Assembly (NCBI RefSeq): GCF_036785885.1
Contig: NC_092323.1
Location: 13,090,501-13,154,500 of the forward strand
Length of the DNA: 64,000 nucleotides
Origin: Coffea arabica
Lineage: Eukaryota > Streptophyta > Magnoliopsida > Gentianales > Rubiaceae
Direction of reading: 5' to 3'
Below, in pieces: positions 8,449-62,635 of this stretch. The position numbers and the translations under genes are program-made. Under the pieces are notes generated by a model. It was not told the DNA's origin, searched no databases, and was given only the letters and a program-made list of their open reading frames with translations. Numbering within the stretch: the first letter of the stretch is position 1; each line of letters opens with the position of its first letter.

Positions 8449-8766
8449 GGGTTAATTCCACTTTGTCCCCCCAAACTTTGGACGATTACCCACTTAAGTC
8501 CCTAAACTTCAAAATGGGACACTTAAATCCCTAAACTTATAAATACCTCCCACTTAAGGAAAATTGTTAACAAATCCTGAATGCCGTTGGTGGTCGAAGT
8601 ATCCCATTTTATAAGGGTTTAGGGATTAAAGTGTCCCATTTTATAAGTTCAAGGACTTAAGTGGGAGGTATTTATAAGTTTAGGGACTTAAGTGTCTCAT
8701 TTTGAAGTTTAGGGATTTAAGTGGATAATCGTCCAAAGTTTGGGGGGACAAAGTGGAATTAACCCA
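8449..8766. mobile_element. MULE-type MITE, 318 bp, near-perfect palindrome
   Basis: The element begins GGGTTAATTCCACTTTG and ends with its exact inverse. The inverted repeats run inward for roughly 130 bp on each side (for example ACTTAAGTCCCTAAAC against its complement). AAAAATCAA flanks it on both sides as an exact 9-bp target-site duplication (8440-8448 and 8767-8775). A 9-bp duplication and long terminal inverted repeats are the signature of Mutator-like elements. It has no coding capacity. Confidence 0.88.
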
Positions 8767-9495: not shown

Positions 9496-11493
9496 ATGGG
9501 GAAAGCAGTCGAGAAGCCTCACGTTATCTGCATCCCATACCCTACTCAAAGTCATATAAGCGCAATGCTTAAGTTGGCCAAACTTCTCCACCACAAGGGC
9601 TTTCACATAACATTTGTTCACACAGAATATAACTACAAGCGTTTGTTGAAGTCACGAGGTCCCAACTCTCTGGATGGTTCGCCAGATTTCAATTTTGAGA
9701 CCATCCCAGATGGCCTCCCCCCATCTGAAAATGATGATTGTACTCAAGATGTTTTCCAGCTTTGTCTTTCAATTGAAAAACATTGCTACGGTCCTTTCGT
9801 TGATCTAGTTAGGAAGCTCAACAAAAGGGCTTCAGTTGATGATGATTATCCTCCTGTAAGTCGTATAATATCAGATACTGTTATGTCAACATTCACACTT
9901 GAAGCAGCTCAAGAACTAGGACTTCCAAATGTACTGTTTTGGACTGTCAGTGCATTCACTGTCATGTGCTTCTTGCACTTCCCTCATCTTCGTGAACGAG
10001 GGTATACACCTCTTAAAGGTATGGAGTATAACTTAATTATTGTTCATTTCACATGATTTGAATATATAAAACGAAATGAGAAAAGAGTGGACACGTCTTA
10101 ATTTTTGAATATTTCAGCTAATATGGTGGCTAATTAGGTTTGCAGAAATATATGTATGAACGATACAACCATGTAGTTTAGATAAAGCAAGCTATTGGTT
10201 AAGTCAAATTTTGTATGTCATTTGAAATTCAAGAGGCCTCTTAAGATTTCATAATTTAATAAATGTTTTCCACTTTATTTTCGATTCTGAAATTCTTTCA
10301 AAATATTTAGCACTTTTACCTTCCTCTTTTGTTCTTTAGCATGTCGGACATTCATCTTTTTCATTTCCCCTAACCGGTATAAACTCAAGAATAGTGATCA
10401 ATTGGAAATAGGAAAATCTAAGTCATCTTAATCTATCCAGTTTCCCCAGTTGCTAATTTCCTTCCGTATTCTTTTGACATAAGAAGATGTTGACCGGAAT
10501 TTTTTTGCCCCGTGTCATAAATATGGTCATGTTTTTCTGTTATAATTTACAGACGAGAGTTATTTTACAAATGGGTACATGGACAACACTATTGATTGGA
10601 TTCCTGGAATCACTAGCATACGCTTAAGAGAGATGCCAACAATAATCTGGACAAGTGATCCCAAGGATGAATTTGTGGACTATTTCATAAGGCTAATGCC
10701 AAGAACTTGCCAGGGTTCAGCCCTGATTTTGAACACTTTTGACGAGCTAGAGCATGGTATTTTGAAGGAATTTTCTTCAATGATGGATCATGTATACACT
10801 CTTGGACCAATTCACTTGCTTATGAACGACATGCTGAAAGATGACCACTACACTGAATCCATCCAATCCAATCTATGGAAAGAAGATGATACTTGCATCG
10901 AATGGCTGAATTCCAAGGGGCGTGGCTCAGTTGCTTATGTTAACTTTGGTAGCATTACAGTAATGACTGAAGATCAGTTGATTGAGTTTGCATGGGGACT
11001 TGCTAATAGCATGCAAAACTTTCTGTGGATCATCAGGCCCGATCTTGTTAATGGAGGGCCAGTTGTTCTGCCGCCTGAATTTCTGACTGCTACTAAGGAT
11101 AGAGGGATGTTAGCAACTTGGTGTAACCAAGAACTTGTTCTTAATCACCCATCAATTGCTGTATTCTTAACACACTGTGGGTGGAATTCTATCCTTGAAA
11201 GCTTGTCTGCTGGAGTACCAATGATTTGCTGGCCATTTTTCGGCGATCAACAGCCTAATTGTTTATGCTGTTGCAATTACTGGGATGTTGGCGTGGAGAT
11301 AGACAGTAATGCGAACAGAACACAGGTGGAGAAGGTGGTAAAAGAGTTAATGGAGGATGAAAAGGGCAAGGAGATTAAGAAGAAGACATTGGACTGGAAG
11401 AGTAAAGCCCAAAAAGCAATAAAACCGGGTGGATCTTCCTACTTAAATCTAGACAAGATGATTGAAGAAGTGCTTCTGTCCCCTAAAATTTAA
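9496..11493 (+). CDS. UGT-1: UGT85-type UDP-glycosyltransferase, intact
   Basis: Two exons, 9496-10018 and 10553-11493, are joined by a 534-bp phase-1 intron (GT at 10019, AG at 10551-10552). The product is 487 residues, normal for UGT85. The N-terminal half of the GT-B fold has the catalytic pair His20 (in TQSH) and Asp127 (in IISD). The C-terminal half has the 44-residue PSPG sugar-donor box at 364-407, with WCNQ at its start, THCGWNS inside and FFGDQ at its end. The closing Gln favours UDP-glucose in this family. There is no signal peptide or membrane segment, so it should be cytosolic. The closest family recalled is the 7-deoxyloganetin glucosyltransferase-like UGT85A group; the acceptor is unknown. 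It carries Ser19 where most family members have Gly before the catalytic His. In the box, FFGDQQP differs from the FFADQQT of its neighbours. Confidence 0.93.
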
Positions 11494-14210: not shown

Positions 14211-14915
14211 CTTTGAACATAAGTGTGTATCCCCTTTTGTTATCTTTAGTTTTTGATTAACCTGCCTACATGGTGATATTTGGCTAGACTTCAAATTCCT
14301 ATATCGATCAGTTTAAAAAGGCTAGTCTTTGCTGCTACCGTTTATGAGCTGTGGAGGGCTGGAGAAGCAGGTTGTTTTCGAATCCAGGGCCTTGCAAATC
14401 CCATTTTACTCCATTTCCAGGTAAAATAGTCAATTCAAAATTTGTTACACTATATTCTAACTTAGTTATAACATATTTAAATTTTTATTACTCCATCTTC
14501 CAATTCAGTTATACCCAAGAAACTTGTCTGAAATGAAATATATGAGGTCTTGCCCGTGTATTTTTCAGTCTAGGCTAGTCTCTTGTGGTAGATTTATGAC
14601 TGCTACGGTGGAACATCTGCATCGCATTGTGCTGTACGTCCTGCGGAAAGATTTCTAAACATAGAGAGACATTGGATTTAATACTTGGTTGGAACTGAAT
14701 ACTGGACAATTTTGTGAGTAGTGTTAGTTCATTTTGAAATGTGCAGTTCAGGTACATGATTGGTTCTGTTCCTGATTATAAACGTTTTGCTTATTATCAA
14801 TGAAAATCATTGTTGCTCGAAAAAGAAAAAAAAAATCATCAAATGTATTCTCGCATTAATAGTTTAGTTAAATGTCATATTTGAGGATGGTATTCAACAA
14901 AATTTAACTTGCAAC

Positions 14916-15331
14916 CTAATAATTTGTTACATGTCATTTTTAAAGAAAGAAAAATATCATCAAATGTCTATAAAAGTTGATTACCTACATGTAAAAGACT
15001 CTCAATGATGAATGAGATTCATGCAGGATTTATATTCTTCAATCAAAATCTGGGATCTCTAACCACAAAGAGAGTAACTAGCCATGGAAAATCCAATCAA
15101 AAAGCCTCACGCAATTTGCAACCCATATCCAGTTCAAAGCCATATTAGCGCAATGCTGAAGTTGGCCAAACTTTTCCACCGCAAAGGCTTTCACAAAACA
15201 TTTGTTCACACAGAATACAACTACAAACGATTGTTGAAATCGCGAGGTCCCAACTCTTTGGATGGTTCATCCGATTTCATTTTTGAGATACAAATGCATG
15301 ATCATAGTGCTAAATGGTCAATCAGATGATG
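14916..15331 (+). pseudogene. Stranded 5' fragment of a UGT-4-like gene (promoter unit plus partial exon 1)
   Basis: 15084-15288 encodes the first 68 residues of a UGT85 protein ([39 protein letters not shown]), then homology stops and the frame ends at 15329. The 170 bp before the ATG also match the promoter of UGT-4, including one copy of the unit that is tripled there and the run TCTCAATGATGAATGAG. It cannot make an enzyme: the acceptor pocket, Asp127 and the whole C-terminal domain are missing. The fragment points towards the 3' end of UGT-2, whose stop codon is only about 95 bp beyond the break. It shares roughly 80% identity by eye with UGT-2 exon 1, but in opposite orientation. Confidence 0.88.
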
Positions 15332-15381
15332 ATCTTCCCTTGAAAAGATGAAATGGAAAAGGAAACTTTAAGTACATAAAT

Positions 15382-17526
15382 TCAAATTTCAGGGGACAGA
15401 AGCACTTCTCCAATTATCTTATCCAGATTCGAGTATGAAGATCCACCAGGTTTTACTGCTTCTTCAGCTTTGGTCTTCCACTCCAGTGCCTTCTTCTTTA
15501 TTTCCTTGCCCTTTTCTCCCTCCATTAAGTCTCTTACCACCTTCTCCACCTCTTTTCTGTTCACATTACTATCTATCTCCACGCCAACACCCCAGTAAGA
15601 GCAACAACTCAAGCAATTAGTCTGTTGATCTGCAAAAAATGGCCAGCAAATCATAGGTACTCCAGCCGACAAGCTTTCAAGAACAGAATTCCATCCACAG
15701 TGTGTTAAAAATGCACCAACTGATGGATGACTAAGAACGAGTTCTTGATTACACCACGTAGCTAACATCCCTCTATCCTTAGAAGCAAGGAAGAATTCGG
15801 GCGGGAGATCGATTGGCCCTCCATTGACAAGATCAGGCCTGATTATCCAAAGAAAGTACTGCATGCTATTGGCAAGTCCCATTGCAAACTCAACCAACTG
15901 ATTTTCAGTCATGACTGTAACGCTACCAAAGTTAACATAAGCGACTGAGCCTGCCTTCTTGGAATTCAGCCATTCGATGCAACTGTCATCTTCTTTCCAT
16001 AGATTTGATTGGATTGCTTCTGTGGAATGGTCATCCTTTTGCACCTCTTTGAGAAGCAAGTGAATTGGTCCAAGAGTGTATACATGATCCATCATGGGAG
16101 AAAATTGCTCCAAAATACCGTGTTCTAGCGGCTCGAAAGTGTTCAGAATGACAGCAGCACCCTTCAAAGTCCATGGTATGAGCTTAACTAAATAATCCAC
16201 AAACTCATCCTTGGGATCAGTAGTCCAGATTACGGTTGGGATGTCTTTTAATCGGACACTACTAATTCCAGGAATCCAATCAATGGTATTTTCCATGTAC
16301 CCATTGGTAAAGCAACTTGCATCTGTAAATTAAATATATAAAAAAAAGCTGTACATTACATACAATTGAAACAAGAAACATTCAATACCTAAAATTGATA
16401 TCTTAATATGGCAAAGGATGAAAAATAAAATACAATATTGGCCAAAACAGGATAAAGTAAGATGCCCTGATTGCCCTATATACATTAATCACCGTCTTGA
16501 TTCTTGAGTTTGTCTCGGTTCAAGAAGAGAAAATTATTAATGAGAAAACAGTGCCAAATAATTTGATGTGCTGTAAAATATAATAACTATAATTTGAAGT
16601 GCATGAGAATTGAGTGCTAAACTTTATGTGAGCAAAGTTTGTTCAGTCTGTATAATCTTTTGAAGGGTAAATTATCTTTTACCCTCCTATGATTTGATGC
16701 TTTGAACCATATAGGGGTTATGTGGTAAAATATCAAATTATATGGGAGGTAAAAGGTAACTTATCCTTTTTTTGAGCCCCTTTGGATTTCAAATTACACG
16801 TGCAGTATTTGCATTAGTCATGAAGCTGCTCCATTTCTGAGTCCAATCATTCTATGGTTCATAGGATATTTTTCTATTGAGTCAGTCATTATATATACTA
16901 TCTGAATTACTGCTAAAATATTACCTTTATCCAATTTTCTCATTGCAAGGTTGTTATGTTATTTTTGTATAGAGGAAAAAAAAAACAAAATTCTTTTTTG
17001 TACCTTTGAGTGGTGTATACCCTCGTTCACGAAGTTGAGGAAATTGCGAGAAACACATGACGGTTAATGCACTCATGGTCCAAAACAGTACATCTGGGAT
17101 TCCTAGTTCTTCAGCTGCCTCAACTGTGAATGTGGACATAACAGCATCAGAAATTATACAAGTTACAGGAGGAAATTCATCATCCACCGAAGCCTTATTG
17201 TTGAGCCTTCTAATCAGATCAACAAATGGGCGGTAGAAATTTTTTGCAATTGAAGGAAAAAGCTGGAAAACATCTTGGGTAACATCATCATTTTCAGCAG
17301 GTGGGAGGCCATCTGGGATGGTCTCAAACTTGAAATCTGGTGAACCATCCAGCGACTTGGGACCCCTTGATTTCAGCAAACGTTTGTAGTTATATTCTGT
17401 GTGAACAAATGTTATGTAAAAGCCTTTATGGTGGAGAAGTTTGGCCAACTTTAGCGTTGCGCCAATATGACTTTGAGATGGGTATGGGATGCAAACAGCA
17501 TGAGGCTTCTTCACTGCTTTCTCCAT
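15382..17526 (-). CDS. UGT-2: UGT85-type UDP-glycosyltransferase, intact
   Basis: Minus-strand exons are 17526-17004 and 16322-15382, with a 681-bp phase-1 intron. The product is 487 residues, the same as UGT-1. An in-frame ATG two codons earlier (17532) would add Met-Ala; 17526 is chosen because it matches the start of UGT-1. Catalytic His20 (SQSH) and Asp127 (IISD) are present, and the PSPG box at 364-407 runs WCNQELVLSHP...THCGWNSVLES...FFADQ. It is predicted to be a cytosolic UDP-glucose-dependent transferase; acceptor unknown. UGT-3 is its near twin. The two differ sparsely over most of their length but at about nine positions in the last 40 residues. A roughly 105-bp palindromic MITE sits in the intron of both copies. 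Residue 24 is Thr (GATLKL) where UGT-3 and the other clade members have Met. Confidence 0.92.
16665..16769. mobile_element. Short palindromic MITE in the UGT-2 intron
   Basis: GGGTAAATTATCTTTTACC at the left is mirrored by GGTAAAAGGTAACTTATCC at the right, making a stem of about 35 bp around a short loop. The same element is in the UGT-3 intron at about 29401-29504. It was therefore there before the segmental duplication. Confidence 0.7.
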
Positions 17527-17582
17527 TGCCATTTGCTCTTTGATCAGTTTGCAGTTGAAGTCCTCTTTAATTTGCTTGGAGA

Positions 17583-17589
17583 TATATAA
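17583..17589 (-). promoter_or_regulatory. Probable TATA box of UGT-2
   Basis: On the minus strand the run reads ATTATATATC, about 57 bp upstream of the ATG at 17526. The matching place in UGT-3 has changed to ATTAAATATC (30319-30325). Confidence 0.5.
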
Positions 17590-18176
17590 TGCTCATGTAC
17601 TGTCTCTTATTACTTTTCTATTTATGTACAGAGTTTCTCGTCGGTTTTCTTTCCTTTTCTTTTCTTTTTTTTTTGGTTGAAAATGCCTTTTCAACTAAAT
17701 TATATGTCAAGTGCTAGAAAATTTTTTGGGGCCCCCTTATATTATGGCAAGAAGAAACCGAGATAGGGTTTAATTAGGAAAATGTTTTGATTTCTAGCAA
17801 TAGGGAAATGATATACATGAAATTACCGCCATAAAAAGAACTCCTTGATAAAAGATCATTCAATTAGGGAAACAAAGATATTGTCCCATTTTCCTGCTGC
17901 AAATGTTCGATTATAGATATGAGCAATGATATTAGACCCAACAATTTACAGATATTATGAGCGGAGTATGTCGATTGGCTTGTATACTGAAGCTACTTCA
18001 ACTTGTAGCAAGTAATCATGTTAATACTACATAGTTTCTACGTAACAATGCACTACTGTCGGTCTTAATATTTCTCTCGAGTGGTTAGATGACTTACAGG
18101 GGCAGTGGAATGGGACAATTGGAAACTTCAGAATTTTTACAGAATACAATTGTAGGACAAAATTATAAATTTAATA

Positions 18177-20159: not shown

Positions 20160-21338
20160 ATGAATCACAACGTCGTTTTTATTGTTGTGTGTGCCGAAAT
20201 ATCATGGATGAGTGAATGAATGTGTCTCATCATGAACAGACACGAATATTCCTATGAATTTGCCAATCATACGAGTTGTAGAGGGATTGGATGATGAAAT
20301 TATGATTCCAATAATCTTCTTGTTTCTCTTAGAAGAAAACACAAACTGTTGAACGCTTTTAGTAGATTAATTTTTGTTACTGTAAAAGGCAATCAATGAT
20401 CAAGCTCTTAGACACTTTCACACACAGAAGATTATGTAGAATGGCCGCGTGATCCCATCCGGTTGCATTACCCGATGTACAATCACTTCATGTTATTGTA
20501 CTTGTAAAAAAAGTAATTGTCATGAATAAAATACTTCATGCATATTTAATACAATATTGTAATATAATTGTACACAAACAATTAAACATGTATAATAATC
20601 GGACCTAATCATACACAACACAGTAGCACCCGCCCTTGGTCGCAAATTAAACCTTTTTGGAGAAAATGCATCTTGAGGTAATGCGATGTGCTCTAAAATT
20701 TTTGGCCTAAAATTTAAGGATTGTTGGCAATCATACGAACTAAATGTGTGCGATAATAGCATGCCACGGCTTATAATTTAATAGTGGAACATGTTAAATT
20801 GCTCGTCAATCAAGTCTTAAAGTGAATTTTTGTGCAAAAGATCATTAATCACGACTTGACTTTACAACCAGAGTTTGTAAAGATTTTTTTTTTTTTTTTT
20901 AAAAAGGTAGAAACTCAAGATTCACGACTAAATTGAACCAAAGAATTGGACATGTTACTTAAACATTATAATTGACCCCAACATTTTCGTTTAATTAGAA
21001 TCATTTGTTTATGTCAGGTGTGATGTGAGGTACGTACCTCATTTTTTTTCTTTCTTTTTTATCTGTTGTAGATAATATCCTTTCACAATTGCCTAGTGAT
21101 AGAATTATGATGTATCATGCATGCATGGGATGTCAATGATCGACTAAAATATTAATATATTTAAGGCCGATAGGCAACAGGTTTTGACAACTCTCTCTTA
21201 CTCTTTTTGAGGGTTTTATTTAATCAGACAATACCAACTTCGATAAGTAAATCTAGCAATTAATTTACAAGTCAATTGCATATATATGAAGTTAGCAGTC
21301 TATAAGATTACAGAGATTATTGGGGAAGGATTGGATTA
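20160..21338. other. Non-coding flank shared with 31.8-32.9 kb
   Basis: The sequence aligns with the UGT-3 flank (landmarks GTGTCTCATC.TGAA near 20222 and 31809; AATTTACAAGTCAATTGC near 21260 and 32820). No gene was recognised. The short minus frame at 20520-20762 is not conserved as coding. Confidence 0.5.
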
Positions 21339-21347
21339 AAATTTAAA

Positions 21348-22622
21348 GGGAAATTTGCCAAATTGGTCCCTAACATTTACCAAAAACACTTTTTTAGTCC
21401 TTAACATATAAAATCAGCCAAAATGATCCTTCACATTTAAATTATGAGCCAATTTGGTCCTATTGCTCGTTTTTACTCATTTCTCCGGCTAAAAATAGCA
21501 CGTCCCCCTCATGTAGTCATATTTTTAGGGGCAAAACCGGCAAATACATTTCATTACCGGTTGAAGGTAAAAGGATAGGGGACCACCACCAAAATACACA
21601 TTTCACCTTTGGCCCTCAAATTACAGTTTGAAGAAACCCTAATTGCATCCCCAAATTAACAAGCATAACTTGGAAATGTACTGCTGATGATGACGACGAC
21701 AAACCTGTAGGGTGTGATTGAGAAAAGATTGAAGGTTTGGCCAAAAAAATCGTGAAGAAAATTAAGAGGGCATGTACACACACACACACACACACACAGA
21801 CACAAACAAGATGCAATGACGATTCTGACCTTTCACAAAAAGCGGTAGCATCGCCGTTCGGAAACCATTCTTGTGGAAGTAGAAAACCAGCTCCAGTCGC
21901 CAACCCAGCAGAAGGGGGGTTGCAGAATCTGGAACAAGACTGGACATAAATCGTGACGGTGCTTGTTTTGTGAGGTAGGGGGCATGGAGTGGGAGGCAGA
22001 CCAGAAAGAATTGAAAGAAGCCGGAGCGGAGTTGCTGCCGGACGGGCGGGTTGGACTTCGGATACATGGATGGGAGATCGAGTCTTCCAAAGCTTCCATC
22101 CTCAAATCCCTCCAGCGCCAAGAGTAACTACCTCTCTCTATCTCTTCTTCCCCTTCCCCCAACCAACAAAAACTCAGATGCCTCACCCTACCCCCCTCCC
22201 CAAGTATTACAACTATTTTGTAAGTATCTGATTGCAGGTTTCCAAGAAGTCACAATGATGGGTTCCTTTCCACAAAGACATCGCTCGTTTGGATCCATTT
22301 TACTCTTCAAAGGTCAGCTTCTTCTTCCCAATTTCTTGCTATTGTATTTTCCCTCTTCAATTTCATGGGTTAGTGAGGTGATTAGATGAAGGAAAGATGG
22401 CTTCTTTCGACCGGTAATGAAATGTGTTTCCAGTTTTGCCCCTAAAAATATGACCACGTGAGAGGGGCATGCTATTTTTAGCCGGAGAAATGAGCAAAAA
22501 CGAGCAATAGGACCAAATTGGCTCATAATTTAAATGTGAAGGATCATTTTGACTGATTTTATATGTTAAGGACTAAAAAAGTGTTTTTGGTAAATGTTAG
22601 GGACCAATTTGAAAAATTTTTC
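21348..22622 (+). mobile_element. Pack-MULE: Mutator-like element with a captured host exon
   Basis: Terminal inverted repeats of about 190 bp (21348 to about 21536, and about 22436 to 22622) share AAATTGGTCCCTAACATTTA near their ends. An exact 9-bp target-site duplication AAATTTAAA flanks it (21339-21347 and 22623-22631). There is no transposase. The middle carries host-like sequence: a first exon of a TIP41-like gene at 21984-22123 with a following intron, and on the opposite strand a possible exon around 21830-21905 that I could not identify. A (CA)n run lies near 21778-21798. Confidence 0.82.
21984..22123 (+). pseudogene. Captured exon 1 of a TIP41-like protein gene
   Basis: From ATG at 21984 the frame encodes 46 residues: MEWEADQKELKEAGAELL, then RVGLRIHGWEIES, then KASILKSLQRQE. 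It ends at a GT donor at 22124. The pattern (E.D.K.LK.AGAELL, G.RIHGWEIES, SIL) fits my memory of the N-terminus of plant TIP41-like proteins, regulators of PP2A-type phosphatases in TOR signalling. Only this exon and some intron are present, inside a MULE, so it is a transposed fragment. Whether it is transcribed is unknown. Confidence 0.62.
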
Positions 22623-22639
22623 AAATTTAAATGATAATA

Positions 22640-27768: not shown

Positions 27769-28118
27769 CAAAGTAGATTTTCGACATTAGATATGAAAAA
27801 AATATAACAATGCACCGACAATTTACACTGCTTCTCATGATGAAGTTATATTTGATTAAACGTACTACTGCATTTATGGACGGGGAAAAGCATTGAAATT
27901 AATGAGGATATGATGCAGAATATGGTTGAGGCAGACTTACAGATATTAAATGCGAAATTAAATCTTTTATTTCTTTCAATCCCGTTGTACTTATACGTAA
28001 TTTTCCAAAATTTAAATACGGATGCATGGAAAAGATGAAATGGAAAAACACTGATCAACGACAAACACTGATAATCCCTTGAATAGATGAAATGGAAAAG
28101 ATGGTTTAAGTAAATAAC

Positions 28119-30261
28119 TTAAATTTTAGGGGCCAGAAGCACTTCTTCAATCATCTTATCCAGATTCAAGTAGGAAGATCCACCATGTTTTATTGCTTCT
28201 TCAGCTTTGTTCTTCCACTCCAATGTCTTCTTCTTGATTTCCTTGCCCTTTTCTCCCTCCATTAAGTCTCTTACCACATTCTCCACCTCTTTTCTGTTCA
28301 CATTATTGTCTATCTCCACGCCAACATCCCAGTAAGAGCAACAACTCAAGCAATTAGTCTGTTGATCTGCAAAAAACGGCCAGCAAATCATAGGTACTCC
28401 AGCTGACAAGCTTTCAAGAACAGAATTCCATCCACAGTGTGTTAAAAATGCACCAACTGATGGATGACTAAGAACGAGTTCTTGATTACACCATGTAGCT
28501 AACATCCCTCTATCCTTAGAAGCAAGGAAGAATTCGGGCGGGAGATCGATTGGCCCTCCATTGACAAGATCAGGCCTGATTATCCAAAGAAAGTACTGCA
28601 TGCTATTGGCAAGTCCCATTGCAAACTCAACCAACTGATTTTCAGTCATGACTGTAATGCTACCAAAGTTAACATAAGCGACTGAGCCTGCTTTCTTGGA
28701 ATTCAGCCATTCGATGCAACTGTCATCTTCTTTCCATAGATTTGATTGGATTGCTTCTGTGGAATGGTCATCCTTTTGCACCTCTTTGAGAAGCAAGTGA
28801 ATTGGTCCAAGAGTGTATACATGATCCATCATGGAAGAAAATTGCTCCAAAATACCGTGTTCTAGCTGCTCAAAAGTGTTCAGAATGACAGCAGCACCCT
28901 TCAAAGTCCATGGTATGAGCTTAACTAAATAATCCACAAACTCATCCTTGGGATCAGTAGTCCAGATTACGGTTGGGATGTCTTTTAATCGGACACTACT
29001 AATTCCAGGAATCCAATCAATGGTATTTTCCATGTACCCATTGGTAAAGCAACTTGCATCTGTAAATTAAATATATAAAAAAAAGCTGTACATTACATAC
29101 AATTGAAACAAGAAACATTCAATACCTAAAATTGATGTCTTAATATGGCAAAGGATGAAAAATAAAATACAATATTGGCCAAAACAGGATAAAGTAAGAT
29201 GCTCTGATTGCCCTATATACATTTACCACCGTTTTGATTCTTGAGTTTGTCTCGGTTCAAGAAGAGAAAATTATTAATGAGAAAACAGTGCCAAATAATC
29301 TGATGTGCTGTAAAATATAATAACTATAATTTGAAGTGCATGAGAATTGAGTGCTAAACTTTATGTGAGCAAATTTTGCTCAGTCTGTATAATCTTTTGG
29401 AGGGTAAATTATCTTTTACCCTCCTATGATTTGATGCTTTGAACCATATAGGGGTAATGTGGTAAAATACCAAATTATATGGAGGTAAAAGGTAACTTAT
29501 CCTTTTTTTGAGCCCCTTTGGATTTCAAATTACACGTGCAGTATTTGCATTAGTCATGAAGCTGCTCCATTTCTGAGTCCAATCATTCTATGGTTCATAG
29601 GATATTTTTCTATTGAGTCAGTCATCATATATACTATCTGAATTACTGCTAAAATATTACCTTTATCCAATTTTCTCATTGCAAGGTTGTTATGTTATTT
29701 TTGTATAGAGGAAAAAAAAACAAAATTCTTTTTTGTACCTTTGAGTGGTGTATACCCTCGTTCACGAAGTTGAGGAAATTGCGAGCAACACATGACGGTT
29801 AATGCACTCATGGTCCAAAACAGTACATCTGGGATTCCTAGTTCTTCAGCTGCCTCAACTGTGAATGTGGACATAACAGCATCAGAAATTATACAAGTTA
29901 CAGGAGGAAATTCATCATCCACCGAAGCCTTATTGTTGAGCCTTCTAATCAGATCAACAAATGGGCGGTAGAAATTTTTTGCAATTGAAAGAAAAAGCTG
30001 GGAAAGATCTTGGGTAACATCATCATTTTCAGCAGGTGGGAGGCCATCTGGGATGGTCTCAAACTTGAAATCTGGTGAACCATCCAGCGACTTGGGACCC
30101 CTTGATTTCAGCAAACGTTTGTAGTTATATTCTGTGTGAACAAATGTTATGTAAAAGCCTTTATGGTGGAGAAGTTTGGCCAACTTTAGCATTGCGCCAA
30201 TATGACTTTGAGATGGATGTGGGATGCAAACAGCATGAGGCTTCCTCACTGCTTTCCCCAT
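28119..30261 (-). CDS. UGT-3: UGT85-type UDP-glycosyltransferase, intact
   Basis: Minus-strand exons are 30261-29739 and 29059-28119, with a 679-bp phase-1 intron. The product is 487 residues. Upstream in-frame ATGs at 30267 and 30312 exist; the second would add a 17-residue leader, but homology to UGT-1 favours 30261. His20, Asp127 and the PSPG box (364-407, WCNQ ... THCGWNS ... FFADQ) are all present. It is the near-identical twin of UGT-2 and should have the same general chemistry. Distinguishing residues are PHPS for PYPS at 15, DLSQLFL for DVFQLFP, and a C-terminus reading AIKHGG...MIEEVLLAPKI. Its promoter has a Stowaway MITE ending 99 bp before the ATG and a weakened TATA-like run, so expression may differ from UGT-2. 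Confidence 0.92.
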
Positions 30262-30359
30262 TGCCATTTGCTCTTTGATCAGTTTGCAGTTGAAGTCCTC
30301 TTTAATATGCATGGTGGATATTTAATGCTGGTGATGAACTGTCTCCTATTAGTTTTGTA

Positions 30360-34050: not shown

Positions 34051-36615
34051 CACCTTTGGAGTCTTTTTGAACTAGAAAAGGGAGAAGGTGTGTTGTAAAC
34101 TTGGTTCACCCATGATCCATCTCATAAGCATATGAATTCCTATTTTAAAAAATAAAAATCCCAGAAAGTCCCTTTCTTGTGGTCCGCATGCCTGTAGACA
34201 AGGTACTTCCATATTCATAATTCAAAAAGCTATTCTTATTGCTTAGCAAAAAGCCAAAAAAAAAAAAAAAACCGCTGAAAAAAGAAGCTATACTGTCATA
34301 GGTTCAATATTTGGGGTCACTAGATTTTTGGACAATCATTTTGCAAATGAGCAAAATTAGTCCATAGTTATAGGTCAGTCAATATATATGGTTCCTCGGA
34401 GCATGTGAACCAAACATATTTCGATTTGAAAACTCAATTTAATCTATCAACGATAAATATTTAAATATCTGTCCGCTTTTTCGCTTCCTTCTGTGCATAA
34501 CTAGATTAATGATATAAGTCTGTCTTTCTTCTAGCCTCTTATATAATGCTATTGGGTTCTCTTTCCCCCCGTAAAATAGAATAGAATAATATAGATATTA
34601 TTGATTAAAAAATGAACATAAAGAAGTTTTTTTTTTTTTACACCTTTTCATTCCTTTTCACACCCCCAAATGTCAAATATAGAATTTGAATTTTGAACCT
34701 GATAATGGAGGAGACTCTAAGAGCTTTCCTCTAGCTATTGGACTAACTCCGGTGATTACACAAAAAGTTACTACGCTGTCAAGTTGCAAAGATTTTTTTT
34801 TTTTTTTTTTTTTTTGGTGGTGGGTAAGAATCAACTTCCAAAGATGATTGTCCAGTTCTTAGATAATCAACTTGTAAAAGTTTATTAGCCATGCAGCTCT
34901 ATATGTTGGTTAAGTCACCACCAAATTATTAGAAGAGTCATAAACTGAAAACATGGTTCACGTGCACGAACTTGATTGGAAGATAGATTATTTATTTACT
35001 AAAGCAATCTAGAAACCATAAATGGCTCGAGAAATAATTCTTGAAAGAGAAGGATGCTGCAAATGCTTGAGATTCATTAGCTTATATTTAAATTGCCTCT
35101 GTCTAGTAAAAATGTAACAGCAGAACATGTTCAAGAAATAGTTGAAAGATAACATATATGACTAATTGAACCAGAAGCTCGAAGTGGTAGAACTCAAGAA
35201 TCACGACGTAATTGAACCAAACTATTGGACTTCTTCTTTTTACGTTATCGATATTGAGTTAAGTTAATCTCTTTTAACATAGTTTTATTCAAGTATGAGA
35301 TACGGCATTTTTTTTATATTAATTTTCCTGTTTTAGATAATATAGTTTTTGCACTTGACAAGTGATTAGACTATGATGCGTGATGCATGGGGTGTAAATT
35401 ATATATATATATATGTGTATCTATCTACCAACATCTGTAAGCAATAATTAATTCCTGGGCATTCTTCATGCCGATTGCAGATGCTTCATTTGGTAAGCCA
35501 GCTTGCAAGTGTTCATTATATGCAGTCCTCGCATATTTATTTTTGGCACAAAATTTAGTTACTGGACATTAACCAAAATTTAGCTATGTCCCTAAATCTC
35601 CCATGATTTTAATACATTTTTCTGATAATTTTGGCCCTTTTCCAAGTATACTGCTATACTATAGCTGCACGAGTATGATATGGTGCATTGCTGACTCTTG
35701 TATTTAACCTGCCGCCTCTCTAGGCTTAGGATGATGCAGTTTGAGAAGCAATATTTATTCAACCTCCACAACCAAAGAAAATAACAAACTAAAAAACTTG
35801 TTTAGATACCTTTTTTTTTGTGAGATATTTTAAGGATGAATTAATCATTTTAGCAAGCATTGCCAGCATTTCAAATTTCCAATAGCTATTTGATGTCCTA
35901 ATTGCGTGCAACTTCATACAATTCAATAGGTGAATGATGATCTCAACAATTTACAAATTTTCTACGGCAATATGGGAAGAGTGTAGTTAAGAGGAAATTA
36001 AACTTTACTCAAGAATTAAATAAACTTTCTTGTTTTCAATAAAAAAAAAAAAGGCCTTGTTAGTTGAGGGTCATTATCTCTATAGTTATGTAGCTCAAGT
36101 GTGTTATATATTTTGCGATCAGGTTTAAGCATAACCTTGCAGCTATTAATGTAGCCAAAATGTCATTTTTAAAAAACCAAGGCCGTGATCCTCTAAATAA
36201 TGTATTCTTGCACTAGCAGTTTAGCTAAATGTCATTTTTAGTGATGACATTTAACAAAATTTAACTTGCAACTTTTTTTTAACTATAGATTAGATACTTA
36301 ATATATATATTTTTAATGAAAACCACCTAGAAATGGTGGGTGGTTGGGTATAGATCCTGATCTGTGTTATTAAAATTTTTCGAAGAGTGCCTGATAAAAG
36401 GATATACCTCTTAATTTTGACTAATTGAAAAGTTTACAAACTTTTAAATAATCTCAACATGCTCCACATTTATGGTACCATGAAGGTGTTTGAGTTTTTG
36501 ACTTGAAATCTTGTTGTATTTGCATTGCTCTACCAATTTTTGAACACTGCTTTTGTTTATTGGCCTTCTTTGAAATCACTTGATAGAATTGATCGTCATC
36601 AATGTTTTAGTTTTT
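34051..36615. other. Intergenic stretch before UGT-4
   Basis: No gene was recognised. 35180-35420 is a diverged relative of 20905-21140 and 32500-32700 (landmarks AACTCAAGA.TCACGAC and TTGAACCAAA). That suggests an older third duplicate of the same flank. Poly-T (34793-34815) and (TA)n (35401-35412) runs are present. Confidence 0.45.
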
Positions 36616-36985
36616 AACTTGCAACCTAATAATTTGTTACATGTAACTTTTAAAGAAAGAAAAAAGTCATCAAATATATATAAGAGAAAATTTAATTTAC
36701 CCATAGATGGAAGAATCTCAATGATGAATGAGAGGTTTAACCTGCAAACTAATAATTTAGTACATGTCGTTTTCAAAAGAAAAAAAAACAAAAGAAAAAT
36801 ATCATCAAATATCTATAAGAGAAAATTTACCTATATGTAGAGGACTCTCAATGATGAATGAGAGGTTTCAACTTGCAAACTAATAATTTAGTAGGTGTCA
36901 TTTTCAAAAAAAGAAAAATATCATCAAATAGCTATAAGAGAAAATTTGATTTACCCATATATAGAAGATTCTCAATGATGAATGA
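36616..36985. repeat. Three tandem copies of a 116-131 bp unit in the UGT-4 promoter
   Basis: Units start at 36616, 36739 and 36870. Each runs AAC(T/C)TGCAA.CTAATAATTT, then CATCAAATA, TATAAGAGAAAATTT and CTCAATGATGAATGAG. The last unit carries the likely TATA box at 36958 and leads into the 5'UTR. The stranded UGT-4-like fragment has only one such unit (14916-15025), so the expansion happened in the UGT-4 lineage or was lost in the fragment. Confidence 0.88.
36958..36964 (+). promoter_or_regulatory. Probable TATA box of UGT-4
   Basis: TATATAG lies 81 bp before the ATG at 37039, inside the third promoter repeat. The equivalent places in repeats 1 and 2 read CCATAGATGG and CTATATGTAG, so each unit may carry a weaker copy. 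Confidence 0.45.
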
Positions 36986-37038
36986 GGTTCATGCAGGATT
37001 TTATTTGGGATCTTTCACCGCAAAGGGAGCAATTAGCC

Positions 37039-39494
37039 ATGGAAAATCCAATGAAAAAGCCTCATGCAATTTGCATCCCATATCCAGTTCAAAGCCATAT
37101 TAGCGCAATGCTAAAGTTGGCCAAACTTCTACACCAGAAAGGCTTCCATATAACCTTTGTTCACACAGAATACAACTATAATCGTATACTCAAAGCACGA
37201 GGTCCCAAATCTTTGATTGGTACAGCCGATTTCAATTTTGAGACCATCCCAGATGGCCTTCCACCAGCTGAAAATGATGATGTTACCCAAGATGTTTTCC
37301 AGCTTTGTCTTTCAACTTCCAAAACCTGTTATGTTCCATTCTGCAATCTACTCAAAAAACTCAACAATAGGGCTTCAATGGATGATCAGTTTCCTCCTGT
37401 AAGTTGTGTAATCTCTGATGGTTTCATGTCGTTCACGCTCGAGGCAGCTGAAGAATTGGGGATTCCAAATTTGTTGTTTTGGCCCTTCAGTGCATTAACT
37501 GTGATGTGCCTCCTACACTTTCCTCATCTTCGTGAACGAGGTTTTACACCACTTAAAGGTACAAATTAGTACTTGCTAATTGTGCATAATACAGTCTTAA
37601 TGATACATAGATTTTAGTAACGACATTAAAAAAAAAAGATTCAAACTAAAAGTTGATAATACAAGCTTGAATTAAAGGTTCTACCACATCTTTTTTTGTT
37701 GCCCTAAAAATAGGGTCATCCATGAATTAGATTGACCTAAATAGTTTTTTTTTTTTTTGTTTCATTTAAGATTTTGAGTAGAAAGCAGATTTTTACTTTT
37801 GAATTCCAAAAGGAACACATGATTCAGAAACCGAATAATTTATCCCACTTTATATGGAGTTATCAAACTCATGAATCGTAATTCTGTGGTCAGTCTAGAT
37901 GGTGAGGTGTCAAATGTGAATATTGCACCACCTAGTATAAATCACACATACACCGTGTGAAAAGGTAGATAGAAAGATTATAAACATGTAATTTCCAAAG
38001 CGACAGGTTCCTAAAAACCAATAAATTTCTCAACTTATTGCCATTTTATCTAGTTTATATCCCCTTACAACCTAACTTTTAGATATTTTCACTCCCTAAA
38101 TTTTAGAAACTCACGGAAATCCGTTAAATCTTAGTTAAGTACGAAAAGTTTTAAATATGACTGTAACCTTCAAAGTTTACGTATTGAACCTGAAAAATGC
38201 TTTTCAAGAAAAATAATTATAGAGTATGAAAGAAGCATTGAAGATATGAGAACACGCATGAAATTGACTATGGTTAGATCCTCTAATAGAGACATCCCAC
38301 TACGTACCATATATTTTTTCCCATATATATGTGACACTTTGGATGTAATGTTTTTTTTCTTTGATCCAGCAAAACTCGGGAATCATGACTAAATTTCAAA
38401 GGGAAAATCAAATAGATCTTATATATGATTTAGTCGAATTTGCCAAATGTGTATCATAATTTCGATGATATGAACTTCTGAAAATTTTATTCTTCCTGCT
38501 ATATGTCATATACATCTCTTTTTGGGTTCAACTCACAGATGACAGCTATTTTACTAATGGATACATGGAAAACACTATTGATTGGATTCCTGGAATCGAT
38601 ATCATCCGTTTAAGAGATATCCCAACCGTAATTTGGGCGACTGATCCCAAGGACGAATTTTTGGAATGGGTAGTGAAAATAATGCCAAGAACTTACAAGA
38701 GTTCTGGTATCATTCTGAACACTTTTGACACCCTAGAATATGATGTACTGAAGCAACTTTCGAACATGATTGATCATGTATACTCCCTTGGACCAATTCA
38801 CTTGCTTCTCAAAGATATACAAAAAAGTGATCATTCCGCTGAATCCATTCAATCCAATCTATGGAAAGAAGATGAAAATTGCATTGAATGGCTCAATTCC
38901 AAGAAGCAAGGATCAGTTGCCTACATAAACTTTGGTAGCATAACAGTGATGACTGAAGATCAATTGGGTGAGTTTGCATGGGGACTTGCTAATAGCATGC
39001 AAAACTTTTTGTGGATTATCAGGCCTGATCTCGTGACAGGAGAGCAAATTGTTCTCCCACCCGAATTTGCGGTTGCAACGAAGGATAAAGGGATGTTAGC
39101 AACATGGTGCAATCAAGAGCTTGTTCTAAATCATCCCTCTATAGGTGTATTTTTAACACATTGTGGGTGGAATTCTGTGCTTGAGAGCTTGTGTGCTGGA
39201 GTGCCAATGATTTGCTGGCCATTTTTCGCAGATCAACTCACTAATCGCCTGTGTTGTTGCACTCACTGGGGTGTTGCTGTGGAGATAGACAGTAATGTGG
39301 ATAGATTGGAGGTAGAGAAGGTGGTAAGAGACTTAATGGAGGGAAAGAAGGGCAAGGAACTGCAGCAAAAAGTTTGGGAATGGAAGAACAAAGCTGAAGA
39401 GGCAATAAGGCCATCTATTGGATCTTCATACTTGAATTTGGATAAAATGATTGAAAATGTGCTTCAATCCCCAAATACTACATCTTTTGGTTAA
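37039..39494 (+). CDS. UGT-4: UGT85-type UDP-glycosyltransferase, intact
   Basis: Exons are 37039-37558 and 38539-39494, with a 980-bp phase-1 intron. The product is 491 residues. An upstream in-frame ATG at 36982 opens the same frame, but the homologous start is 37039 (MENPMKKPHAIC). Catalytic His20 (VQSH) and Asp127 (VISD) are present, and the PSPG box is at 363-406 with WCNQ, THCGWNSVLES and FFADQ. It is one residue shorter than its clade-mates after the Asp motif (FMSFTLEAA against VMSTFTLEAA) and longer at the C-terminus, ending in an extra Thr-Ser-rich tail. It is the most diverged complete member of the first clade, with differences concentrated in acceptor-side regions (KTCYVPFCNLLKK; FWPFSAL). 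A different acceptor range is possible but unproven. Confidence 0.93.
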
Positions 39495-41371: not shown

Positions 41372-43459
41372 ATGGGTTCTCTGGAAACCACAAAATCCAC
41401 AGAAAAACCTCATGCAGTCTTGGTTCCAATTCCAGCTCAAGGCCATGTTAACCCAATGATGGGACTTGCTAAGCTTTTGCATGCAAAAGGGTTCCATATA
41501 ACCTTTGTCAACTCTGAATTTAATCACAAACGTTTGATCCGATCAAAGGGGCCAGAATCAGTTAAAGGGTTCCATGATTTCAGGTTTGAGACTATCCCTG
41601 ATGGGATGCTACCATCAGATAAAGATGCCACTCAAGATGTGCGTCAGCTCTGTGATTCGGTCAGAAACAATTTTTTGGTTCCTTTTAAGGAGCTTTTGAT
41701 TAAGCTGAACTCGTCTTCTGAAGTGCCCCCTGTTAGTTGTGTGATTTCTGATGGAATCATGAGCTTTGGCATCAAAGCTGCTGAAGATTTGGGCATCCCT
41801 GAAGTTCAATTTTGGACGGCTTCTGCTTGTTCTTTCATTGGATTCTTGCACTATAGAGAGCTATTCAGGAGAGGAATTTTTCCATTCAAAAGTACATACT
41901 ACAAACTTCTTTATTTATTCTGTTGTCTCCGGACTGTATTGTTATTGTCTTTAACGTTCCATCTCAACTTAATTGGTATGATTAAACCTGTTTTTTAATC
42001 ATCTCATTTATAGCTTGTAATTTCTTGATCATGAGAATGATGAAACATGCATACCTCCTTAAAATATGAAATCGACATGTATCTGGACCACTTCCCACGT
42101 TATGGCTGGACCACTTCCAACATTATGGCCTTCCAGGCCGAGTGTTCACCCGGAAGCGATCGGTTTTATACCCATTTATTGGCCCCAAACATGTAACGAG
42201 AATATTCTATTCCACTTCCTGTCTTACCTTCTAAATGGCTTCCTAGCTTTGTGTCCTTTATAAAGTTATATAACACTTTATTTTTTTCTTCAGTTCCAAT
42301 GGCTACGAATGGAGTAGTATATGTATATATGTAAGAAACGATTACAATCTTTTTTCTGCTATAATTGTTATTTCTGTTATTACACTATTAGTATTTATTG
42401 ACACTTAAAAAAAATTAAAAATTGGACTCACATGTCCAAATTATGAAGTTCCTTCCTTGTTAGTCTTGATATAATTATTCGTCAAACTTGAAAAACCAAT
42501 ATTTTTTCTCTTTGTACAGATGACGATTACCTCACAGATGGTACTCTTGATAAGCCAGTTGATTGGATTTGTGGCATGAGCAACATAAAATTCAGGGACC
42601 TCCCAAGCTTTTTCAGAACAACTGATCCCAACGATATCTTGTTTGATTTCCTTGGAGAGGAGGCACAAAGTTGTTTAAAAGCTCTAGCCATAATCTTCAA
42701 TACCTTCGATGAACTTGAAAAGGAAGCATTAGAAGCAGTCATTTCGAAGTTCGATTTCCCAAATATTTATACAATAGGCCCTCTACATTTATTAGCCAGG
42801 CACATTGTTCCTGAAAGCCAAGTCAATTCCCTGAATTCAAGTTTATGGAAGCCTGACTCGAAAGTTTTCCAGTGGCTAGATCAAAGAGCATCAAACTCAG
42901 TTGTTTATGTTAATTATGGAAGTGTAACAACCATGACCGACCATCACTTCAAAGAATTTGCTTGGGGACTTGCATATAGCAAGCAACAGTTTTTGTGGAT
43001 TGTTCGGCCTGATGTCGTTCAGGGAGGAGAATCAGCAACGTTGCCTGAAGATTTCCTGGAAGAGATTTAGGACAGAGGGTTGTTAACGAGCTGGTGTGCA
43101 CAAGACAAAGTGTTGGAGCATCCAGCTGTTGGTGCATTTTTGACTCACTGTGGATGGAATTCTACATTAGAAAGTATTTCTGCCGGTGTGCCTGTCATCT
43201 GCTGGCCTTTCTTCGGCGATCAGCAGACTAACTGTCATTACTCTTGCAAGAAATGGGGAATTGGGATGGAAATAAATCATGATGTGAAGCGTAACGAAGT
43301 TGCAGAACTTGTACGCAAAATGATTGTGGGAGAGGAAGGGGAAAAATGAGGTTCAACGCTAAAGAATGGAAGAAGAAAGCTGAGGAAGCAACTGTAGGGG
43401 GATCATCTTACATTAATTTTGACAAGTTCATCAATGAGGCTCTTCATTACAAGGGATGA
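41372..43459 (+). pseudogene. UGT-5: UGT85-type glycosyltransferase, recently inactivated
   Basis: Exon 1 (41372-41891) is intact and encodes MGSLETT, AQGH with the catalytic His, and VISDG with the catalytic Asp. Exon 2 starts at 42520 after a 628-bp phase-1 intron. Compared with UGT-6, exon 2 has a CAG-to-TAG stop at 43068-43070, just before the PSPG box ([23 protein letters not shown]). A one-base deletion in an A run near 43346 then brings a stop at once, and there is a 3-bp in-frame loss near 43392. The rest is close to UGT-6, so the damage is young. The reading frame could still give a truncated protein lacking the sugar-donor site. The TATA-like element is also altered (CATAAAT at 41304-41310 against TATAAAT in UGT-6). 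Confidence 0.9.
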
Positions 43460-43509
43460 GTTGCAAAAAATGTTTCTCCTGTGGCTAAAAAGAAAAAAGG
43501 ATTATATTA

Positions 43510-45085
43510 GTCATTTTTGTTTTGAATTACCTAAGCTCTATGGTTGGAGTTGCATGCCTTGGAATAACAAGAACAATGCAATTAGAAAGTTTCATAAAGC
43601 ATCACTTTCTTTTCTTTTCTTTTCTTTTCTTTTTTTGTCTTAGATACAAGGGCAAATTATATTTTACCCCCTGTGGTTTAGCATTTTTTACATAATCCCC
43701 CTATGATTTTAAAAGTTATACATAACCCCCTCATAGTTTGGATTAAAGTGTTAAAGTAACGGAAATAGTCATTCGGAACGAAACTTCTAAAAATGTCGAA
43801 ATTACCCTTATAAATATATGACACACTAACCCCATATGATTTTTATATTTTATCATATAACTCCCTTATAGTTTAATACTTTACCATATAACCCCCTTAT
43901 GATTTTCAAAAAATACACATAAATCTCCTTGGTTAATAAATAATTTTCAACTTTATATAAGGGTATTTTTTATATTTTAGGTGACTCCATTACGAATGAG
44001 CATTCCCATCACTTTGACGTTTTAATCCAAATCATGAGAGGGTTATGTATAACTTTTGAAACCCTAGGGGGTTATGTAAAAAATGCTAAACCACAGGGGG
44101 TAAAGTGGAATTTACCTTAGATACAATATCTATTAATTTCTCATCTCGAATTTGATACAATTAATAACAGGACATGATGTATACTCCTAATCAATATGAT
44201 TACAATAACCTGCGAGTATGTGCCTATTTGGCTGTCAAATTGACTGAGTGGAATCTTGACAATTAATGGGAGTGGAATAATGAAAAGAACCTGGATATCT
44301 ATTAATTGCTTCAATTATCAATTACTTGTCTGCTTGGGAACCATCCCTATCATAGAATTCATTTCAATTTAGCTGCGTCTTGTTAAGTTTTCTCCATTAC
44401 TAAAGGAAGAAAAGTTGACAGGTCAAGATTTCAACTGGCAACAATCCTTGCGAAATGCTACGCTTAGTTTGGCACCTCAGCTGCAAATCTTCAATGTGAA
44501 TATGCCATGTTATTAAATTTTTGACAGCCGCTGATTGTGGCTTTATGGGTTCTCTTCAACTTCATTAGCTCAGAGACAGAGGCAATCTCTTATCTCTCTC
44601 TCTCCCTTTTTTTTTATTTGAAACAAAGAGGCAATCTGATTTAAAGGTACGTCCTACAAGTTCGTATACTAGCGAAAAATAAAAAAGATACTAACTTGTT
44701 GAAAGCTGCAATGAATCTTACTGCATGGTATATGCAACAATGTCATCTAGAAAAATTGCAACATGGACATCTAGAAAAATGGCAATGAATCAGCTTCAAG
44801 TTTGAGTTTCGAGTACGGACTGAAGGAATTAGTAATACGTTAAAATATACAAGCAAATTCAAGTTCTATTTCAAATGAAACAATTATGCTTAGGATTAAT
44901 TTTTTTCACTTTTGCACACAATAACCTTTATATTTCTGTATGATTTTTATTTTTCAAAAATCACAAGGCGCAGATGCAGCATTTCCAGTCCAACCATGGG
45001 TTCCAACAGAAAAAATGAAATAGATTTTGTTGTGAAAGTGGTATATTAGTTAGGAAAACTTAAGGCTAATTGCATTTTACTCCCT
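43510..45085. repeat. Downstream flank of UGT-5, duplicated at 53.13-54.99 kb
   Basis: The segment aligns at high identity with 53130-54989 (landmarks GGTTGGAGTTGCATGCCTTG, AAAGTTTCATAAAGCATCAC, GACTGAGTGGAATCTTGAC). It includes the MITE at 43650 that the other copy lacks. No gene is seen inside. Confidence 0.82.
43650..44116. mobile_element. MULE-type MITE, 467 bp, with an empty site in the duplicate
   Basis: Its arms are complementary: TTTACCCCCTGTGGTTTAGC on the left, and the same read inverted on the right. TTAGATACAA flanks both sides (43640-43649 and 44117-44126), a 9-10 bp duplication. The duplicated segment has one TTAGATACAA with no element at 53247-53256, which gives the pre-insertion state. 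Confidence 0.92.
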
Positions 45086-45416
45086 TGAAATATACACAAA
45101 TTCTCACCTTGATCCATGAACTAAACTTTAGGATATTTTGCTCCCTAAAGTTTTAAACTTGTCCTACTTTAGTCCAATCGTTAACAAAATATACAGAACT
45201 GCCAAAATAGTTGCCACCCTTCATTAACAAAATATTCTAATTTTATTCATAAGGTAATTGAGAGTAGTAACTGATCCATTAGTTTTTGTCTGTTCCATTG
45301 TTTATTGGATTAAAATGAGATGAGATTAAGAATTTAAGGAGCAACGTGTTTCAAACTAAAGTTCATGGATCAAAGTAAAAAATAAAGTATAATTAAAGGG
45401 TGCAAAATGAAATTAT
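45066..45416. mobile_element. MITE with degraded inverted repeats
   Basis: CTAATTGCATTTTACTCCCTT on the left pairs loosely with the inverse of the right end (ATAATTTCATTTTGCACCC). Inner motifs such as CCATGAACTAAACTTTAG are mirrored by AAACTAAAGTTCATGG. In the duplicate at 54.97 kb only the left 25 bp remain, so the duplication breakpoint fell inside this element. Confidence 0.6.
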
Positions 45417-62570: not shown

Positions 62571-62635
62571 TTTCCTTCTAGTGCTGATATAATTATTCCA
62601 CAATTTTGAAAAACCAATTCGTTTTCCTATCCTAG

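Follow-up and report, generated by a model that had tools for sequence, protein, structure and literature searches.

A truncated UGT85-like exon lying antisense behind UGT-2 in a Coffea arabica gene cluster, probably a relic of tandem duplication

An exon fragment tail-to-tail with UGT-2

We analysed a 64,000-nucleotide stretch of Coffea arabica DNA (NCBI RefSeq assembly GCF_036785885.1, contig NC_092323.1, positions 13,090,501 to 13,154,500 of the forward strand), hereafter called the window, which holds a tandem cluster of UGT genes (UGT-1 to UGT-4) and a truncated copy of a UGT85-like exon 1, hereafter called the fragment. Only 68 exon-1 codons and a 5′ flank survive, the rest of the gene being gone, as in a truncated pseudogene. 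The fragment lies tail-to-tail with UGT-2, an intact minus-strand gene whose two exons comprise 487 codons and a stop, and forms an inverted repeat with the start-codon region of this gene (Table 1). We consider it likely that the fragment is a decaying relic of tandem UGT duplication, probably without maintained function.

BLAST against the window aligned 15071-15288 with 17322-17539 without gaps, 179 of 218 positions being identical (82.1%, E 8.8e-59), and placed the two arms 2,033 bp apart; within the coding part (15084-15288) identity to UGT-2 was 82.9%, with 35 differences over 205 bases. The first-pass annotation of this DNA had described arms of about 205 nt, roughly 80% identical and about 2 kb apart, made up of a sense UGT exon 1 with a promoter-like flank and of UGT-2 beside it in the opposite orientation. 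This description proved accurate: the 205-bp exon is preceded by DNA homologous to the UGT-4 flank, in which a TATA-like element, CTATAAAAG, can be read by eye at 14968-14976, and its neighbour is the intact minus-strand gene. The duplex energy calculated for the two arms was -271.9 kcal/mol. When the fragment arm was shuffled 200 times with its dinucleotides preserved, the mean was -75.7 (standard deviation 6.6, best value -94.0). Since the energy of the arms themselves falls far outside the shuffled values, the match exceeds chance; a match is also expected by descent, the fragment being paralogous to all four UGT genes.

Pairing of the arms would nevertheless be imperfect. They mismatch at 39 of 218 positions, and when G-U pairs are allowed 190 (plus strand) or 191 (minus strand) of the 218 bases can pair. 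The longest identical run is 21 nt, and 48 of the 198 windows of 21 nt contain two mismatches or fewer. Perfect 21-mers shared with the fragment arm numbered one of 198 for each of UGT-1, UGT-2 and UGT-3, and 19 of 198 for UGT-4. Compared with loci that produce small interfering RNAs (siRNAs), gene copies in opposite orientation within a few kilobases are present here; near-perfect complementarity of the arms is not.

A survey of inverted pairs across the window (E <= 1e-8, low-complexity filter on, four palindromes counted) ranked the fragment/UGT-2 pair tenth by score among 31. UGT-1 aligns with UGT-2 in inverted orientation over 1,004 columns of exon 2 (83.3%) and 595 columns of exon 1 (84.2%); judged by these alignments, the complete UGT-1 matches UGT-2 in inversion over a greater length and slightly more closely than the fragment does. 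Since UGT-1 is the better partner and tighter hairpins are present, the geometry alone is not special in this cluster.

Other inverted structures were recorded in the same survey region. A hairpin at 8449-8765 has 110-bp arms (96.4% identical) and a 97-bp loop, and an inverted repeat at 21335-21565 / 22406-22632, with 231-bp arms (92.2%) and an 840-bp spacer, possibly represents the ends of a transposable element. Three stretches of about 350-470 bp (43651-44116, 48039-48472 and 45067-45415) are 65-71% self-complementary and resemble foldback elements or miniature inverted-repeat transposable elements (MITEs).

Table 1. Positions of the fragment, its inverted partner and related genes in the window (C13, homologous chromosome)
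Feature	Position	Strand	Remarks
Left arm of inverted repeat	15071..15288	+	218 bp
Right arm of inverted repeat, start-codon region of UGT-2	17322..17539	-	
Block further upstream, homologous to DNA in front of UGT-4 (36199-36272)	14842..14915	+	83.8% over 74 bp
5′ flank of fragment, homologous to UGT-4 5′ flank	14903..15083	+	
Truncated UGT85-like exon 1 (68 codons, 205 bp)	15084..15288	+	mosaic: 5′ part UGT-4-like, 3′ part UGT-1/UGT-2-like
GATACAAA, empty insertion site	15287..15294	.	on C13 duplicated (8 bp) around a 377-bp MITE
41-bp segment between fragment and recognisable UGT-2 3′ flank	15289..15329	.	on C13 too, after the MITE
UGT-2 exon 2	15382..16322	-	stop codon 15384-15382; Pfam UDPGT 3.7e-27
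UGT-2 intron	16323..17003	-	GT..AG
UGT-2 exon 1	17526-17004	-	
UGT-1, complete paralogue	9496..11493	+	also tail-to-tail with UGT-2 (83-84%)
UGT-3	28119..30261	-	near-identical to UGT-2
UGT-4	37039..39494	+	the gene to which the fragment's 5′ end and flank are most closely related

Origin of the fragment and its counterpart on the homologous chromosome

The 5′ end of UGT-4 is collinear with the fragment and its flank (14903-15288 against 36867-37243, 81.9% by BLAST), and DNA upstream of the 13-bp leader of the fragment found a match at UGT-4 and none at UGT-1, UGT-2 or UGT-3. Within the coding part kinship shifts: the first 102 sites differ from UGT-4 at 8 and from UGT-1 at 21, whereas the last 103 differ from UGT-4 at 19 and from UGT-1 at 11. 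A maximum chi-square permutation test supported this mosaic structure (p 0.0015 for UGT-1/UGT-4, 0.0036 for UGT-2/UGT-4). Since the flank is homologous to that of UGT-4 and kinship shifts inside the coding part, we read the fragment as a UGT-4-type 5′ end, which has probably undergone gene conversion with a copy of UGT-1/UGT-2 type. The 5′ flank of UGT-4 itself (36609-36986) carries a unit of about 124 bp roughly three times in tandem; the fragment has one such unit.

At the other end of the fragment, BLAST within the window recognised the UGT-2 3′ flank starting at 15330 by comparison with UGT-3 and at 15329 by comparison with UGT-1. The 3′ flank of UGT-1 appeared by eye a plausible source of the 41 bp in between and was dropped as a candidate, the segment having no significant match to it above shuffled sequence (p 0.19). 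With regard to capture by a transposon, the sole element recognised at the junction was the later insertion on the homologous chromosome described below, no search aimed at transposons having been made. Searches of the window with Rfam, at the gathering threshold, and with ARAGORN returned no match.

Searched against the whole genome, the window mapped to contig C14, and the fragment had a second copy, 95% identical, on C13, the homologous chromosome (haplotype or homoeologue) of the same genome. We compared 70 kb of C13 with the window, listing matches no shorter than 100 bp and no less than 85% identical, and obtained the order UGT-1, fragment, 295 bp matching the 3′ end of UGT-2, UGT-3 and UGT-4. 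The 5′ flanks of the two fragments are very alike (177 identities, 3 mismatches, 1 gap). The C13 fragment carries TGA at codon 54, a disabling change in addition to the truncation; the window copy has none. At the junction C13 also holds a 377-bp element with 13-bp perfect inverted ends and a perfect 8-bp target-site duplication. Its family gave 41 matches, counting the query and a piece of 77 bp, among 40 candidates scored of 561, and of four copies inspected, the C13 copy included, three showed a perfect 8-bp duplication and one 7 of 8. Judged by its inverted ends, target-site duplication and copy number, the element is a non-autonomous hAT-like MITE; its hAT class we take from the length of the duplication.

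C13 furthermore passes from UGT-2 sequence near window position 15636 straight to window position 27266 (C13 near 11160169). The 6-bp motif TGCAAA stands at both window breakpoints and once on C13, and on this ground we assign the change to microhomology: it has the form that a microhomology-mediated deletion of some 11.6 kb on C13 would leave. Such a deletion, in a direction that we infer, would have taken most of UGT-2 and left its 3′ end. C13 also lacks about 35 bp immediately before the deletion point. The inverted UGT-3 arm remains on that chromosome, 3,497 bp from the fragment and past the MITE. With the MITE and this deletion on C13, the arrangement is not kept between the chromosomes; its being kept would have been a sign of function, though not one that strictly defines siRNA loci.

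The near identity of UGT-2 and UGT-3 carries a risk of mis-assembly, and the junction could in principle be an artefact of this kind. On C13, however, the fragment and the UGT-2 3′ end stand together as well, parted only by a MITE with a perfect target-site duplication. Since the junction is present on both chromosomes, it predates the split of C13 and C14 and is no assembly error; we regard an artefact as scarcely credible.

These comparisons are consistent with the following course of events. A UGT85-like gene of UGT-4 type would have been cut during rearrangement of the tandem cluster, its 5′ end (upstream DNA and 68 codons) surviving and coming to lie tail-to-tail against the UGT-2 3′ flank, in an order of rearrangements that we can only propose. 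The inverted repeat with UGT-2 would then be a by-product of paralogy and opposite orientation, and after the junction had formed C13 would have acquired the MITE at that point, and most of UGT-2 would have been deleted from it.

Constraint on the fragment and RNAs that could span the repeat

Where UGT-1 to UGT-4 all agree, changes private to the fragment numbered 5 non-silent and 2 silent; by the same type of count UGT-1 had 2 non-silent and 6 silent, and UGT-4 had 6 of each. Between the window and C13, the fragment differed at 13 of its first 204 coding bases, UGT-1 at 8 and UGT-3 at none, and exon 1 of UGT-4 at about 10 of 520 (taken from exon identities). Divergence of the fragment thus exceeded that of UGT-3 (p 0.0002) and of UGT-4 (p 0.004). 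These counts are suggestive of relaxed constraint on the fragment, in tests that were not significant.

Several observations indeed weigh against decay. The 5:2 ratio of the fragment does not differ significantly from the 2:6 of UGT-1 (Fisher p 0.13; against UGT-1 and UGT-4 together, p 0.21), and its divergence between chromosomes is not significantly above that of UGT-1 (13 against 8 of 204, p 0.37). The number of substitutions per non-silent site between chromosomes (dN) is 0.045 and per silent site (dS) 0.134, giving a dN/dS below 1 when the stop codon is excluded, values that do not point to neutral change. With changes polarised by UGT-1, UGT-2 and UGT-4, and one further site given to neither branch, the window branch received 2 non-silent and 4 silent changes; on the C13 branch there were 5 non-silent, counting the stop, and 1 silent (p 0.24). 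The window copy has moreover kept its open frame, its TATA-like element and a well-preserved 5′ flank, and the stem predicted for it is very stable. Given these branch counts and the C13 stop codon, decay is plain for the C13 copy only and unproven for the window copy.

The residual open frame of the window copy runs for 81 codons (15084..15329, plus strand) and ends in TGA, and it could be translated as a truncated UGT peptide of 81 residues with a role of its own. The dN/dS below 1, which is based on few changes, would agree with this. Nearly the whole enzyme is lost, however, the peptide found no Pfam match, and C13 has a nonsense codon in the frame; we hold such a role to be highly improbable.

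The first-pass annotation had proposed that a plus-strand transcript from the fragment promoter would read through UGT-2, giving a hairpin or antisense RNA and siRNA silencing of the UGT cluster. A transcript over both arms would indeed be expected to form a hairpin: in the predicted fold of a hypothetical plus-strand RNA covering 15000-17600, 186 of the 218 fragment bases paired with UGT-2 exon 1. The promoter-type flank and the TATA-like element speak for this proposal. So do precedents: SULF, YUP and poplar ARR17 are described as silencing loci that arose from inverted or partial copies of genes (PMC9750854, PMC12371187, PMC9636151). An identity of 82% is no bar for targets, since siRNAs of the soybean I locus are judged by its authors to act on targets that are 82% alike, mainly through mismatches (PMC3804491).

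Against the proposal, more than 2 kb of antisense read-through would be required, perfect 21-mers are scarce outside UGT-4, and the MITE breaks the arrangement on C13. Furthermore, the observed/expected CpG ratio of the fragment is 0.80 in both copies, the highest of nine arms (the other seven range from 0.30 to 0.59); since CpG is not depleted, there is no sign of decay from long methylation, a weak test. We consider silencing of the cluster by such a read-through transcript improbable. The geometry on which the proposal was built has stood; a maintained silencing function appears unlikely from the sequence, in view of the imperfect pairing, the like relation of UGT-1 to UGT-2, and the stop codon, MITE and loss of most of UGT-2 on C13.

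The messenger RNA of UGT-2 itself may offer a simpler route to a self-pairing RNA, one that requires no promoter at the fragment. The antisense fragment starts at nucleotide 94 past the UGT-2 stop codon; if poly(A) addition takes place more than 93 nt past the stop, the mRNA therefore holds its own start region a second time, in antisense. We folded spliced UGT-2 mRNAs with an assumed transcript start at 17590. When the 3′ end was placed at 15071 or 15000, 190 of the 218 fragment bases were predicted to pair with the mRNA's own exon 1, across the start codon, and with an end at 15200 the figure was 79 of 89. The minimum free energy was -658.2 for an end at 15071, compared with -436.7 for an end at 15290, which excludes the fragment. 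The likeliest RNA over the repeat, if there is any, would accordingly be a UGT-2 mRNA that extends past its stop and forms an imperfect stem over the start codon.

Folded onto its start region in this way, the mRNA could act as a cis brake on its own translation or as a Dicer-like substrate. In addition to the pairing and folding energies, the positions of poly(A) hexamers leave room for it: UGT-2 has no exact AATAAA over the 602 nt scanned past its stop, its first one-mismatch hexamer lies at +101, inside the fragment, and UGT-3 has AATAAA at +148. The window branch of the fragment, with its 2 non-silent and 4 silent changes, is also not clearly decaying. On the other hand, UGT-2 poly(A) addition may fall within the first 93 nt, as UGT-4 has AATAAA at +92 and UGT-1 has ATTAAA at +8 (with no exact AATAAA before +587), and a brake would not be conserved, most of UGT-2 being gone on C13. 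Since the paralogues carry hexamers at differing positions, hexamers cannot place the 3′ end of UGT-2. We judge a cis brake unlikely, if conceivable. One could go further and suppose that the imperfect duplex of about 190 bp over the start codon damps UGT-2 and, via small RNAs, UGT-3, and that the locus is a segregating self-silencing allele, whole on one chromosome and taken apart on the other by the MITE and the deletion; this extended model appears to us decidedly doubtful. A decaying relic of duplication remains the reading that we prefer.

The UGT genes themselves were characterised as follows. Exon 2 of UGT-2 matches Pfam PF00201 at 3.7e-27, while exon 1 alone found no match. The best hit of exon 2 among solved structures was 2pq6 (E 7e-107), followed by 7zer, a cyanohydrin beta-glucosyltransferase; both we take to belong to the UGT85 family. 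Comparison of UGT-2 (15330-17620) with UGT-3 (28069-30359) gave 95-100% identity per 100 bp over exons and intron (15500-17499), against 71-90% in 15300-15499 and 63-93% in 17500-17999, a pattern that suggests gene conversion. dS was 0.033 between UGT-2 and UGT-3, 0.016 for UGT-3 between chromosomes and 0.040 for UGT-1 between chromosomes. Damaged pieces of UGT exon 2 occur elsewhere in the window, one frame-disrupted (62557-63315) and one with an in-frame stop near 43068 (42428-43496), and the C-terminal piece of a papain-family protease lies at 56395-56712 (PF00112, 2.8e-05).

Comparison with known silencing loci and pseudogenes

Inverted or partial gene copies have become plant silencing loci more than once, in one case acting on a glucosyltransferase (PMC9750854, PMC12371187, PMC9636151). 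That case is SULF of Antirrhinum, an inverted-duplication small-RNA locus directed against chalcone 4′-O-glucosyltransferase (PMC9750854, PMC12371187), which resembles the coffee locus in its origin from an inverted duplication and in involving a plant glucosyltransferase. SULF has been demonstrated to be a small-RNA locus and is under selection, whereas the coffee locus is known from its sequence, has one arm in an intact coding gene and arms that are 82% alike, and has lost most of UGT-2 on C13. YUP of Mimulus, an siRNA locus derived from incomplete or inverted gene duplication, likewise began as an incomplete or inverted gene copy (PMC12371187); it differs in that control of a trait was shown there, and in that the gene copied in part is a homologue of CYP450 with no relation to pigment.

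On the Y chromosome of poplar, partial copies of ARR17 also share exon-1 homology and include an inverted, hairpin-forming pair, S1/S2, on which small RNAs, mostly of 24 nt, are found, and the exon-1 pieces are described as being under relaxed selection (PMC9636151). In poplar, however, both arms are fragments and the target lies elsewhere in the genome, and both siRNAs and methylation of the promoter were measured. In soybean, the I locus (CHS1-3-4) has two perfect 10.91-kb repeats separated by 5.87 kb, and the CHS7/8 targets are 82% like CHS4, silencing being judged by the authors to proceed mainly via mismatched siRNAs (PMC3804491). This locus shares with ours inverted members of a clustered gene family and the 82% level of identity; its arms are perfect over 10.91 kb, against 218 bp at 82% in coffee. 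A literature search on the tail-to-tail arrangement of rice glutelin genes found no paper.

Truncated pseudogenes are ordinary in tandem UGT clusters elsewhere. The fragment resembles them in its truncation to a 5′ piece, in the stop codon on one chromosome and in the presence of other damaged UGT pieces in the window; its antisense position directly behind the UGT-2 stop is the one unusual feature. A truncated copy lying antisense directly behind the stop of a relative is the raw material of silencing loci, and the dismantled C13 version provides a natural control. If active, the locus would show the start of a silencing locus inside the 3′ untranslated region of a working gene; if inert, it would add a further case in which clustered genes readily give rise to such a geometry, which taken alone does not speak for regulation. 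On the comparisons made here we would file it with the truncated pseudogenes, in an inverted setting, with a self-pairing UGT-2 mRNA as a possibility.

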